Origin: Geoalkalibacter subterraneus
Lineage (GTDB): Bacteria > Desulfobacterota > Desulfuromonadia > Desulfuromonadales > Geoalkalibacteraceae
Assembly: GCF_000827125.1 (NCBI RefSeq)
Contig: NZ_CP010311.1
Span: forward strand, 2,046,001 to 2,110,000
Direction of reading: 5' to 3'
Length of the DNA: 64,000 nt
In this document: positions 47,092-57,284 of the stretch, in pieces
How positions within the stretch are numbered: position 1 is the stretch's first letter
Layout: each line of letters starts with the position of its first letter
The notes under the pieces: generated by a model
What the model was told of the DNA's origin: nothing
Database searches by the model: none
What the model saw: only the letters and a program-made list of their open reading frames with translations
Translations under genes and position numbers: made by a program

Positions 47092-47333
47092 ATGAAAAAA
47101 TCGCGGTACACTGAAACGCAGATCGTGGCCATGATGCCGGCATCCCGATGAAGGAGATCTGCCGCAAACATGGCATTTCCGACGCCACCTACTACAACTG
47201 GAGGTCTAAGTACGACGGCATGAGTGCTTCTGAACTCAAGCGCATGAAAGAGATGGAACAGGAACTCTCTCAGTTCAAGCGCATGTATGCCGATATGGTC
47301 TTGGAAAATCGCACCCTGAAAGACCTGATTTAG
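47092..47333 (+). pseudogene. IS3-family transposase OrfA remnant
   Basis: It starts MKKSRYTETQIVAM behind AGGAGG, then a deletion shifts the frame; the remaining frame (from 47148) reads MKEICRKHGISDATYYNWRS, then ELSQFKRMYADMVLENRTLK, the helix-turn-helix and leucine zipper of IS3 OrfA. OrfB is missing, so the element is dead. Confidence 0.8.
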
Positions 47334-47467
47334 CAAATGAGGAATACTGTATGCCGGACAAAAGCCGGCACCAACTCCGCTGTAAACTGGACCGTTTTTT
47401 CTATTCCAGCGCAATCACTGGCCCAGTCCCATACACCTGAAAACGCAGATAAGAAAGCACTGTTGAT

Positions 47468-47932
47468 TTACTCCGAATCAAACTCAAGAGAATGTTCTAT
47501 CCGGATGCAGCCAGTTACGCTCATGGCTGCGGGACACTTTTCGATGTAATTCTCCATTGCCCAATGAGCATCGTTTTCTTCTTCGTGGCTCAGTTTCAAG
47601 ACATAGTGAACACGAATCACAGTAATTTTGAGTACACCATCGACATTTTCAATATCGCCTTCGACATCAGCGCGAAAACGGTCGGTATGGGTTCTTATCT
47701 TTTTGGTCGCCAGCACGCTGGCGAAAGTGCCCATCATTCAAGCAGAAACTGCGCCGACGATGTGATCTAAGGTCGCTGCATGCTCTTCGATAGGATCCAC
47801 TTTGTAAAATTTCTGTATCCCTCCGTGGACGCCATAGAAGACCGGTTCGGAAAAACCTTCGATATGGGCTATCCTGACCGGCCCCCGGTCTCTAGTGATC
47901 GTGATTCGTGATGTATGAATGATCTCCGCCAT
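47468..47932 (-). CDS. OsmC family peroxidase, candidate selenoprotein (in-frame UGA at the catalytic cysteine)
   Basis: Two adjacent frames separated only by a TGA (47738-47740) make one OsmC-type protein of 154 residues. Before the TGA it reads HAATLDHIVGAVSA and after it MMGTFASVLATKKIRTHTD, so the TGA takes the place of the peroxidatic cysteine of OsmC proteins (usually GC-x2-GT). The second conserved cysteine is present in YIEKCPAAMSVTG. An SECIS-like hairpin lies downstream at the expected distance. The start ATG has GGGAG upstream. The enzyme would reduce organic hydroperoxides. If the cell lacks selenocysteine insertion, the gene is instead a nonsense mutant. Confidence 0.72.
47707..47724 (-). 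promoter_or_regulatory. SECIS-like hairpin after the OsmC UGA codon
   Basis: TCGCCAG-CGTG-CTGGCGA is a perfect 7-bp stem with a 4-nt loop having G at its second position. The loop begins 20 nt after the UGA, within the range usual for bacterial SECIS elements (about 16-37 nt). Confidence 0.6.
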
Positions 47933-51238: not shown

Positions 51239-51309
51239 TTTGGTGGGCTGTTTTTTCTCTCGCCCCCACTCCAACTATCAATGCTTCAACTGAAGCATCC
51301 TCAAGTTCC

Positions 51310-51636
51310 TCAGGTACTGCCCGGTTCAGGCGCAGGCCTTTCGGGCGGCGCCGTTCCACCGGACGCATCATCCTCGGAATGAGGGCCAAATTTGCGAGTA
51401 AAGAGTTGTCGGGTTCCGAATGCGCTCACCGTCATAGCGATGGCGGCAACCTCTTCGATCTCGTTTTCCGTGGCGCCGGCCTGCCTCGCAACTGCGAGAC
51501 CGAAATCCGTTCAGGGAGCACACCCTGCTGCCAACGCAGCGCCGAGCGCCACGAGCTGCTTCGTTTTGTGGTCAAGAGCCCCCGGACCCAGCGCGGCATT
51601 AAAGGCTTCCTGAAACTTCTCCATCGAATTATTCAT
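51310..51636 (-). CDS. Carboxymuconolactone decarboxylase/AhpD-like protein, candidate selenoprotein (CxxU)
   Basis: The frame has MEKFQEAFNAALGPGALDHK and TKQLVALGAALAAGCAP, then TGA (51511-51513), then TDFGLAVARQAGATENEIEE and VAAIAMTVSAFGTRQLF. The TGA stands at the second position of the family's CxxC redox motif, giving C39-x2-U42. A stem-loop follows at SECIS distance. The 108-residue length and the CMD fold on both sides of the UGA are intact. AhpD-like selenoproteins are known in delta-proteobacteria. The reading frame is continuous with the upstream methyltransferase frame, so the ATG at 51636 is a likely but not certain start. Confidence 0.72.
51483..51500 (-). promoter_or_regulatory. 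SECIS-like hairpin after the CMD UGA codon
   Basis: GTCTCGC-AGTT-GCGAGGC forms seven pairs (one G-T) with a 4-nt loop having G at its second position. The loop begins 17 nt after the UGA. Confidence 0.55.
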
Positions 51637-52325
51637 CTCTGTTATTCCCTTCTCATGCGCTACTGCAGATTTGCGTAAAGTGACACAGAAAAGATCCCGA
51701 GGAAGACTTCCCTCCTCCAGCCGGTCCACCGCCAGGAGCGTATATCCTCTCGCCAGCTGCCGTATTTTTTCCGCGGTGAAGAAGTGAACGGCGAAACCGC
51801 CAATCTCGTAGACCTCTTCGCGCAGATGCCGGCCGGTCCGGTAATGCTTATCGAAATTGCTGCGTACAGAGAATACAGGGCCAGGCCGCCGGGGCGCAGA
51901 ACACGCCTTATTTCGCCGAGAATGAAAGCTATCTCGTCGGTAGCAAGATCCATGCACAGCAGCATATGAGAGTAGCAGGCGTCGAAGGAAGCATCAGCAA
52001 AAGACAGAGGCTGGCGCACATCGTAGGCGCAGACATCAATAGAAGCTGAAAGACCAGCCGCAGCAGCTTTCTCCCGCAGGGTAGCGACGGCAGTCTCCGC
52101 GTAATCCAGTGCCGTGACCCGCAGGTTGTTGCGAGCGAAATAAAAAGTATCGCGCCCCTGGCCGCAGCCAAGCTCGAGCACCTCGTGTACCCCCTCGCGT
52201 CGAAACAGTTCAAGAGCTTTCCTGGAGTAATCGCTTGGCTCTTCTCCAAAAAAAGCCGCCTCTTTGGCGAAAATTCCATCCCAGTGCGTTTTCTGGTCGG
52301 TTTTTAATTGTTTTTCAGACCGCAT
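51637..52325 (-). pseudogene. SAM-dependent methyltransferase (TehB/UbiE-like) with a frameshift
   Basis: The ATG at 52325 follows GGAGG. The first frame gives THWDGIFAKEAAFFGEEPSD, the SAM motif VLELGCGQGRDTFYFARNNL and MLLCMDLATDEIAFILGEIR, then EIRRVLRPGGLALYS. At about 51870 the likeness moves to another frame: VRSNFDKHYRTGRHLREEVY, FFTAEKIRQLARGYTLLAVD and LPRDLFCVTLRK. An extra CT in a TCTCT run explains the shift. The second frame has no stop before the CMD selenoprotein, so restoring the frame would give a methyltransferase-CMD fusion. Sequencing error is possible. Confidence 0.7.
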
Positions 52326-54227: not shown

Positions 54228-57200
54228 TCAGGACGGTAGCTTGCGGATTCGCACCGGGATCACCTGACGCGAGTTGGATCCGACGGCGAAGTCGGAGAGA
54301 GCAATCCGCCCGGGCCGATCAGGGTCTGCAAAGCCCAGGAGGTTGATGCTTGCGCCGCTCTTACGGAAGCGCAACCCCTCCAGGGTTTCGTTGCCGATCT
54401 GCACGGTTATCGCCCCCTCGCCGCTGCGGCCAAATCCGTGCTCCACGCCAATGGCTTCCGGATGCATCCCTTCACGCACCCGCAACAGCCCCTCGATGCG
54501 GCCGCCGGGAGAGGTCAACTCGACGACATCGCCGTGGGCAAGACCGAGGCTTTCGGCCGTACGAGCGGCGATGTCGATGGTACTGGTGTAGCGCAAATCC
54601 CGCAACCGAGATGAGGCTGTATTGGGAGATGAGACCACGTTCGACTTGAAACTGAAGGCGGTCAATGGGTATTCGGAACGGGGAAAACGCTTCACCAGAA
54701 GATCGCCCTTGACCAGACGCGCTCCGTAGAAGGTCGGCACGCCACTGTATTTTTCCGCTGTCAATGAACTGCGGCTGGTGCCGACAGTCTCGCTGTAAAT
54801 ACTGATCATCCCCGGATATTTTTTAGCCAGATGTGACTCTTTGTAGGCACCTTCCTTCCCTTCGAAGCGCCCACCGCGTGCCATGACGTAAGCGACTTTG
54901 CGCCAGTTCTCCGGGCTGACCCTGCGCAGGCGCGGAACATAGTCCTGCAGACCGGCCAGGCGGATTTCCTCGTCGTCGGCATTGGGCACCGACTTAGCGT
55001 CCAGGGCCACATTCTCGAAGACGCGCAGGTAGAAATCTTCCGGCCGTTCCAGCGGGTGAAGACTGCCGTTGGAAGCCTTGATGGCCTGGGGGCCGAAACC
55101 GGGAAGACCGAGTTTTTTCCCGATTTCGATAACAAAACTGTCCATGCACACCGGCTCTCCATTAGCGAAAGTTGCCTGACGCGGGGTCACCACCGGGTAA
55201 CGCACCGCGTTGGTCTTGGTCAGCCAGGCCCCCCAGGGGTTGAGCTCGCCCCATGTTTCGTAAAGCACGCTGTCAGGCACGATGTAGTCGGCCAGACGGC
55301 TTGTTTCATTAATGAACGGGTCGATAGCGATCATCAATGGGATGGAGGCCTTGGGATCTTTAAGCGCTTCGGCCAGGGTGTTCTCGCCGCCAGATTCACC
55401 GTAGATAAAGTTGGCATTCCAGCTGATAAGGGCCTTGAGGGGATAAGGGTAGTGGTTGATGGAACCGGTAATCAGACCCGTCTCGATGGCGTTGGTAAAG
55501 GGATACCACTGATCCTTGGCAGGATAGGGTTTGCCCGCTGCCTGGTTGCGCTTGAACTCGCTGGTCTTTTCATAGGCAATGCGGGTGCGGTCGATGCGGA
55601 TGCCGGGCTGCTTGGGCTTGCCGGGATAGTCGGTCAAATCGTAGGCTGCCCCTTTCATGTCCGTGAACTTGCCGCCGCCGGCGCTCATTCCGCCCTTGTA
55701 GTTGAGGCTGCCGACCAGGGCGGACAGGGACAGGATGGCCCAGGTGGTGTAAAAACCTGTCGTGTGCATGGTGTTGCCATGACAATCGACCGCGACCTTG
55801 CGTCCGTGACTGGTGAACTCGTGCGCCAGATCGGCAATTTCCTCAGCGGGGATGCCCGACTCTTGGGCGTACTCCTCCAAGGTGAAGCGGAAGGCAGACT
55901 CTTTCAACAGCGTGAAGGAAGATTTCACCGCCAGGCGTTCACCGCCGTAGACGATCGTCTCATCCACCTCAAGACGGGCCGCATCGACCTGATCCGCAGA
56001 TTTGAGCTGTCCGTCAGTGCTGTCAATCACCAGAAAATCCTCTTTTCCGGCATCACCGGATGCCTTGAGCACACGCCCTTCCAATTGATGTCCCGGGGTG
56101 ACGACAACCAGATGGCTCGAATTGGTAAAGCTCGGCTCCCCGACCCGTTCCATCGAAGCCTTGCTCGGCACGCTGAGGTAGGCGGCGTTGTGGCGGCCGT
56201 TCTCGATGATCCAGCGGATCATCCCCATGGCCAGGGCAAGGTCGCCGCCGGGGCGGATCGGCATCCAGCGAGAGCGGTCACCAGCGGCGATACTGTCGCT
56301 GTTGGTGAGCATGGGAGTCACCGTAACGTAACGCAGGTTGCCTTCACTGCGGGCCCTGGCCAACAGCTTTCCCTGGCGCTTGAAAGGATTGCCGGCCTGC
56401 CCGGGGGAGGTTCCGAAATTGATGAGGAACTCGCAGTGCTCGAAGTCTGGTTTGAGATGAGGGTACTTTTTGAAATCGCTTAGAAACGCCGCGTTGCCTG
56501 CCCGCATGGAGAGCCCGCAGATAGAAGAATGCCCCGAATAGTTCTTGCTGCCAAATGCCTGCAGAAAGCGGAACACCATGAAATCCTTGCGACCTTCGTC
56601 TGCGGTTCCCAGGATACCCAGTTGGTTGGCGCGGGTCCCGTATTCCGGGTTGTCCGGATCGATAAGTGTCTTAAGGTCACGAATCGCCGCCAGGCCGTCC
56701 ACGTGCCCCTCGCCGAAAAGGTTTCCGCCGTTGACAACTTCCTCAATCAGCTGCTCCGGTGAGATAGGGATCCACTTGTCCTCGCCGCGTTTGCCTGCCC
56801 GCTTAAGCGGGGTAAGCACCCGGAACCTGTCGTGGATCTTATCGAAAACCACGTTGCCGCGGGCACAAGCCGTTGAACGGTTTTCCAGACCGCTTTCGTC
56901 ATGGTTCGAGGTCCAGCGCAGACTTTCGCGGAGGGGTGTTTCGTAGGGAAGCCAGGGGTCGCTTGACAGGGGGTGATAGGGGTTGCCGGCTGCCCGCACC
57001 ACCGTACCGCTTTTGTTCTCCACCTTGACCCGCACGCCGCAGTGGGTCGTGCAGCCGATGCACACGGTGCTGGCCACGGTGAAATCCGCATTGGGCACCA
57101 CCTGGCCGGAATCATTGATGCGGGCCTCGGGGGCGGGAGCATTGCCATAGATGGCATCAGGCGCCGGATTTCCGCGCCGGCGCAGACGCGCGGCGGCAGT

Positions 57201-57284
57201 CAGGGTATCGCTATAACCAACGGCGGCTCCGGCCGCCGTGGCCAGGCCGGTAATTTTGAGAAATTTCCGTCGACTCTGTTTCAT
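54228..57284 (-). CDS. ttrA: Molybdopterin oxidoreductase catalytic subunit, tetrathionate reductase type
   Basis: A 1018-residue periplasmic enzyme with a Tat signal (QSRRKFLKITGLATAAGAAV). Cysteines 75, 78, 82 and 140 (CIGCTTHCGVRV, STACARGN) bind a 4Fe-4S cluster, and Cys256 in SGHSSICGLSM is the probable Mo ligand. Later motifs are ASIPLMIAIDPFINETSRLA, DYIVPDSVLYETWGELNPWG and the C-terminal VGSNSRQVIPVRIRKL. Length and the gene order FeS-NrfD-Mo match ttrBCA of Salmonella; selenate, arsenate or polysulfide reductases of the same family cannot be excluded. It overlaps ttrC by ATGA. Confidence 0.82.
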   Translation of the reverse strand: MKQSRRKFLKITGLATAAGAAVGYSDTLTAAARLRRRGNPAPDAIYGNAPAPEARINDSGQVVPNADFTVASTVCIGCTTHCGVRVKVENKSGTVVRAAGNPYHPLSSDPWLPYETPLRESLRWTSNHDESGLENRSTACARGNVVFDKIHDRFRVLTPLKRAGKRGEDKWIPISPEQLIEEVVNGGNLFGEGHVDGLAAIRDLKTLIDPDNPEYGTRANQLGILGTADEGRKDFMVFRFLQAFGSKNYSGHSSICGLSMRAGNAAFLSDFKKYPHLKPDFEHCEFLINFGTSPGQAGNPFKRQGKLLARARSEGNLRYVTVTPMLTNSDSIAAGDRSRWMPIRPGGDLALAMGMIRWIIENGRHNAAYLSVPSKASMERVGEPSFTNSSHLVVVTPGHQLEGRVLKASGDAGKEDFLVIDSTDGQLKSADQVDAARLEVDETIVYGGERLAVKSSFTLLKESAFRFTLEEYAQESGIPAEEIADLAHEFTSHGRKVAVDCHGNTMHTTGFYTTWAILSLSALVGSLNYKGGMSAGGGKFTDMKGAAYDLTDYPGKPKQPGIRIDRTRIAYEKTSEFKRNQAAGKPYPAKDQWYPFTNAIETGLITGSINHYPYPLKALISWNANFIYGESGGENTLAEALKDPKASIPLMIAIDPFINETSRLADYIVPDSVLYETWGELNPWGAWLTKTNAVRYPVVTPRQATFANGEPVCMDSFVIEIGKKLGLPGFGPQAIKASNGSLHPLERPEDFYLRVFENVALDAKSVPNADDEEIRLAGLQDYVPRLRRVSPENWRKVAYVMARGGRFEGKEGAYKESHLAKKYPGMISIYSETVGTSRSSLTAEKYSGVPTFYGARLVKGDLLVKRFPRSEYPLTAFSFKSNVVSSPNTASSRLRDLRYTSTIDIAARTAESLGLAHGDVVELTSPGGRIEGLLRVREGMHPEAIGVEHGFGRSGEGAITVQIGNETLEGLRFRKSGASINLLGFADPDRPGRIALSDFAVGSNSRQVIPVRIRKLPS

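Follow-up and report, generated by a model that had tools for sequence, protein, structure and literature searches.

The locus at positions 51301–52325 (minus strand) of the 64,000-nucleotide stretch of Geoalkalibacter subterraneus Red1 DNA analyzed here (the window) is, as judged from its sequence, a real mduS gene of the already catalogued NF045649 family, encoding a methyltransferase-CMD-TUGx double selenoprotein, in a copy whose reading frame is interrupted by one frameshift. The best overall explanation, and one that we consider likely from the comparisons below, is that the gene specifies a class I SAM methyltransferase followed by a CxxU-containing CMD/AhpD domain and a TUGx tail, with two UGA codons for selenocysteine (Sec), and that Red1 has suffered a recent 2-nt frameshift. 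The Red1 genome is 3,717,645 bases with a chromosome of 3,475,523 bases, and a search of plasmid records gave no match.

All of the mduS features lie on the minus strand, where the methyltransferase frame begins with the ATG at 52325, which has an SD site of -10.9 kcal/mol, and the N-terminal part of the domain (51870–52325, 152 codons in the start frame) matches PF13649 with 74.6 bits as well as other class I methyltransferase models. At a TCTCT tract (51868–51872) a codon-level comparison reveals a 2-nt length difference; the start frame continues past this slip to a TAG stop (51660–51662), and the homologous sequence runs on in another frame, uninterrupted by a stop, into the CMD domain (PF02627, 60.2 bits). 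An internal ATG at the methyltransferase/CMD junction (51634–51636) is a possible separate start for the CMD-Sec part. The first UGA (51511–51513), at residue 42 counted from the ATG at 51636, gives the CMD motif GCAPU, i.e. CxxU, and it is followed by a SECIS-like hairpin (51483–51500). The second UGA (51310–51312) is in the C-terminal TUGT tail, where it is followed by GT and then by a TGA stop (51301–51303), two codons past the Sec, with a second SECIS-like hairpin (51280–51299) beyond the stop. The preliminary description of this DNA had already read the CxxC motif as CxxU through a UGA, and had recognized the nearby hairpin and the fusion of CMD to a methyltransferase, all of which are borne out; however, it allowed for only one Sec residue where there are two, and it ended the feature at 51310, which is the last base of the second conserved Sec UGA and not the end of the gene.

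The assignment to NF045649 comes from the two pieces either side of the slip. The N piece (155 residues) scores 257.7 bits over model positions 2–149 and the C piece 307.3 bits over positions 146–336, such that the two abut at the slip, and the CMD is contiguous with the methyltransferase by model positions although in a different frame in this copy. A whole-genome profile search with the same model gives 255.3 and 298.2 bits for the two pieces, and the next model for the N piece is far lower at 63.9 bits. Each piece, scored separately, is below the NF045649 cut-off of 380 bits, and the locus is filed as a disrupted copy.

The two UGA codons are predicted to be read as Sec through the two SECIS-like hairpins. 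UGA is kept at the first position in all 13 aligned copies and at the second in all 17, in which two further codons and then TAA, TAG or TGA follow at the same position. The CMD homologues examined have either U or C at the first site, with CxxC in L149, L037, L039, L017 and L018, and there is no Cys version of the second site among the 17 copies. The C-terminal tail is TUGx in eleven of the 12 intact copies and TUSR in the other (L110).

Rfam models at their gathering thresholds have no match in the window, and the hairpins were found by comparison instead. The first begins 10 nt past its UGA and has its loop 18 nt past it, a loop spacing seen in 13/13 copies; the loop of the second is 19–21 nt past its UGA in 17/17. 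The folding energy of hairpin 1 in the window is unremarkable (z -0.65, with 48 of 200 shuffles as good), and its support is the comparison of the 13 sequences, in which 100% of cells pair and six cells are changed on both sides, a number reached by none of 500 shuffles. In all six the innermost pair goes from A-U to G-C, and they are common to related copies, so they may be a single event. Hairpin 2 has both a favorable fold (z -3.30, one of 200 shuffles as good) and covariation, with 89.9% of cells pairing in an alignment where the Desulfopila row (L036) is misaligned by one base, and eight two-sided cells over three pairs, again reached by 0/500 shuffles. Other counts are less discriminating: the number of pairs changed on both sides is equaled in 310 of 500 shuffles for hairpin 1 and 16 of 500 for hairpin 2, and the number of further pair types in 500/500 and 313/500 respectively. 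Since hairpin 2 lies past the stop codon, protein coding does not explain its conservation.

The preliminary description suggested looking for Sec machinery, and a full set is present in the genome, with tRNA-Sec (76.3 bits), SelB (403.6), SelA (611.2) and SelD (370.8) each above the curated cut-off. The SelD gene itself carries a UGA, and there is a second CMD gene with a UGA in the same genome at C1:450134. We also note a candidate OsmC-like selenoprotein (47468–47932, minus strand) located 3.4 kb from mduS, with an in-frame UGA (47738–47740) corresponding to U65 and a PF02566 match of 38.3 bits against a cut-off of 27.5; a hairpin past this UGA is only mildly stable (z -1.13). The earlier claim of a second Sec candidate within 4 kb is plausible.

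Fused methyltransferase-CMD proteins are found elsewhere. In eleven genomes there are 12 intact copies, each of which encodes the methyltransferase and the CMD in a single frame that includes both UGAs, and none of these homologues ends before the CMD region. Full-length two-UGA copies score over the NF045649 cut-off in 4 of 136 genomes of the order; in the class, six of 277 genomes are listed over the cut-off, these being the same four and two that match in the methyltransferase part only; and in a phylum sample of 395 genomes there are eight listed, two of which are also in the order search. The highly scoring Desulfopila copy (L036) reaches 614.2 bits. There are also departures from this architecture. 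Four relatives in three genomes (L086, L087, L099 and L111) have an MduS-type methyltransferase and a TUGx Sec tail without a CMD, and two of these CMD-less single-Sec relatives score over the two-Sec model's cut-off (G215 with 431.1 bits and G261 with 398.4). In these rows it is thus the tail, and not the CMD, that is the constant companion of the methyltransferase. No stand-alone CMD gene with a TUGx tail was clearly found in the loci examined.

The 17 Sec-tail rows form one group (100/98) in a tree of 30 methyltransferase domains, and no tail was seen in the remaining 13, one of which is cut by masked bases; L104, L109 and L092 were left out because they were not extracted or are fragments. 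Gain or loss of the CMD needs three changes on this tree, in which key forks are open. AlphaFold2 models of the Desulfopila MduS together with four other rows (the two window pieces, L037 and L039) have a mean pLDDT of 47.7, which is too poor to use.

The role of MduS can be proposed by analogy. The methyltransferase would methylate a soft substrate, either a metalloid or a chalcogen, and the CxxU site and the selenolate tail would hold the substrate, reduce it between methylation steps, or both. This coupling of reduction to the methylation of a metal(loid) or chalcogen is a tentative proposal, and we regard it as somewhat less than an even prospect. One pointer is that the C piece, once MduS is set aside, scores highest with NF041537, the arsenite methyltransferase/AhpD fusion model, at 98.8 bits (117.3 for the Desulfopila copy); part of the lead of this model over plain AhpD models, however, reflects the fact that it is longer. 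All five of the fusions examined also have a UGA late in the frame. A further pointer is the surroundings of some of the sister methyltransferases that lack both CMD and tail: a heavy-metal ATPase gene and MerC are near one of them (L131), CDF efflux genes are nearby in L132, L136 and L142, and another (L134) has genes for thioredoxin, DsbD, rhodanese, DUF2703 and an LMWPc-family protein close by; we take LMWPc to be the family of one type of ArsC. These surroundings come from a scan of chosen neighbors in six of the 16 sister stretches and from examination by eye of the other ten, in which L133 repeats the L132 neighbor set and no metal operon was recognized in the rest.

The surroundings of mduS itself are less informative. 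Across 15 stretches, the window and the Desulfopila locus, apart from mduS and overlapping or antisense frames, no neighbor is shared by more than sets of two or three loci, and there is no arsenic or mercury gene among ten chosen mduS neighbors that were scanned. The metalloid role hence depends on the sister families. A different explanation would make MduS a general antioxidant enzyme of the AhpD kind, in which the methyltransferase is only incidental. AhpD proteins take part in peroxide reduction, and a rubrerythrin-family gene adjoins mduS in the window; however, this rubrerythrin gene matches nothing in the other 16 stretches that were compared, and the four CMD-less relatives have the methyltransferase and Sec tail but not the AhpD-like domain. 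We consider a general antioxidant function to be unlikely and favor, tentatively, the coupled methylation described above.

Several other genes around mduS can be noted. A DJ-1/PfpI gene is directly after mduS in L123 (7162–7827, plus strand), where it is followed by a gene for a sulphur-transport family protein, and the same arrangement of mduS and DJ-1/PfpI is seen by eye in L093 and L098. In two other loci a second, different methyltransferase gene is just upstream of mduS (L118, 7428–8015, and L130, 1510–2295, both minus strand). The window also encodes a TtrA-like molybdopterin reductase (54228–57284, minus strand) that scores 1029.5 bits with a tetrathionate reductase model, below its cut-off of 1750, and contains two short frames at 47148–47549 (plus strand), the first of which by eye resembles the start of an IS3-type transposase.

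The 2-nt slip noted in the preliminary description is real relative to homologues, as all 16 relatives keep one frame across the position of the TCTCT tract. That description treated the slip as something to be corrected, and this part does not stand, because a read error is unlikely and the lesion is probably in the genome. If it arose instead in sequencing or assembly, Red1 would make an ordinary full-length MduS. The gene has only this single lesion, is otherwise about as conserved as the intact copies, and retains both UGAs and both hairpins, all of which would be expected of an intact gene misread. However, the usual PacBio error is of one base, and this lesion is a dinucleotide. The assembly was moreover polished with PacBio (250x) and Illumina (100x) data using Pilon (PMC4357744), which makes an error unlikely, and we give this explanation only a small chance. 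The frameshift is thus likely to be a real feature of the genome, and the strain as sequenced then has no one frame that encodes the whole fusion; the methyltransferase would be truncated.

The break also appears to be recent, as suggested by the low divergence of the sequence on both sides of it. In an alignment that includes nine of the 16 relatives, the identity of the window to L059 is 0.69 before the slip and 0.61 after it, compared with 0.70 and 0.66 between the intact genes L056 and L059. In the methyltransferase tree the window has an end branch of 0.23, where the median is 0.21. The CMD part is somewhat more diverged, with identities of 0.59 to L059 and 0.68 to L056, versus 0.76 between those two.

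Two further explanations have very little to recommend them. In the first, a programmed frameshift would enable the ribosome to join both frames, which are both open through their overlap and lead to a conserved downstream domain, but none of the 16 relatives has a shift, there is no X_XXY_YYZ heptamer near the slip (the single one in frame is at 52254), and we think this highly improbable. In the second, equally remote, the CMD UGA is a plain stop ending a truncated CMD protein with no Sec inserted, as the ordinary code and the unexceptional energy of hairpin 1 would allow, but coding and the C-terminal tail go on past this UGA in 13/13 copies, the hairpin is at a fixed distance, and the Sec machinery is complete.

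At the junction between the methyltransferase and the CMD, all 12 intact genes open the CMD part with a start codon, ATG in 11 and GTG in one, and it is preceded by an SD of -8.1 to -12.7 kcal/mol (mean -9.9), a range that can be set beside the -5.3 to -10.3 kcal/mol of the genes' own starts in the ten relatives measured. Other internal ATG and GTG codons in the same genes have a mean of -3.7, and 16 of 193 reach -8 (Mann-Whitney P 4.7e-8, with the proviso that these are related and not independent sequences). When synonymous codons are shuffled, the fraction of shuffles as strong at the junction ranges from 0.02 to 0.76 and is below 0.05 in just one of the 12 genes. Most genes thus regain an SD of this strength after shuffling, so that the junction SD is in large part set by the amino acids, and selection on the SD as such is no more than suggested by these sequences.

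In the window the junction ATG has a weaker site of -5.3 kcal/mol, with AAGGGA at 51646–51651, and it sits 23 nt past the TAG at which the shifted frame terminates, a layout that might permit re-initiation. As this start codon and its modest ribosome-binding site are retained, the CMD-Sec part could still be made alone in Red1. More generally, mduS may be a nested two-product selenoprotein gene, in which the junction start yields a free CMD-Sec partner or reductase alongside the full enzyme, the Sec tail being constant and the CMD an optional cassette; the frameshift in Red1 would then leave two separate products. We offer this as a speculative possibility, on balance rather doubtful. It might perhaps extend to the ArsM-AhpD fusions, where four of the five examined have a junction ATG with an SD of -6.6 or stronger, a count made without control codons.

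No title among the literature matches listed concerns a junction start in such a gene, and we found no description of either the junction start or the CMD-less single-Sec relatives, although the family's source paper (Haft and Tolstoy 2025) may cover them. Taken together, the CMD-less relatives and the junction start lead to specific predictions as to how the Sec tail, the CMD and the methyltransferase cooperate, and how many proteins are made from each gene. The guess from raw sequence of a fused, frame-broken selenoprotein proved to be right, and it is now tied to a named family, MduS.

Several known systems resemble parts of this locus. TehB tellurite and selenium methyltransferases are in the same class I methyltransferase neighborhood (PF03848, 38.3 bits versus a cut-off of 20.4), but the window methyltransferase is far below the TehB equivalog cut-offs, and neither a CMD nor a Sec tail is known in TehB. 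The GSU3128 family (seleno)protein and free AhpD-like selenoproteins share the CMD fold and a CxxU read through UGA, but they stand alone without a methyltransferase, and the window C piece scores 36.2 against 110. The ArsM_AhpD_UU fusions (NF041537) are closer, as they join a methyltransferase to a homologous CMD, in which the motif is CxxU (CxxC in L149), and have a UGA towards the end of the frame in all five members examined (L147–L151; these are the full-length ones of 22 matches, and four are over the NF041537 cut-off). However, their methyltransferase is of the ArsM type with its own Sec, unlike that of the window, where the methyltransferase piece scores 21.7 bits against the NF041537 cut-off of 510 and the C piece alone matches well. 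Closest is MduS (NF045649) itself. The preliminary description thought such a fusion unusual, but the family is already catalogued, and Table 1 of a review (PMC13188914) lists MduS with two Sec and CxxU, citing Haft and Tolstoy 2025. The methyltransferase, the CMD with CxxU and the C-terminal Sec tail are the same, and the window copy belongs to the same family, differing in that it is split by the frameshift.
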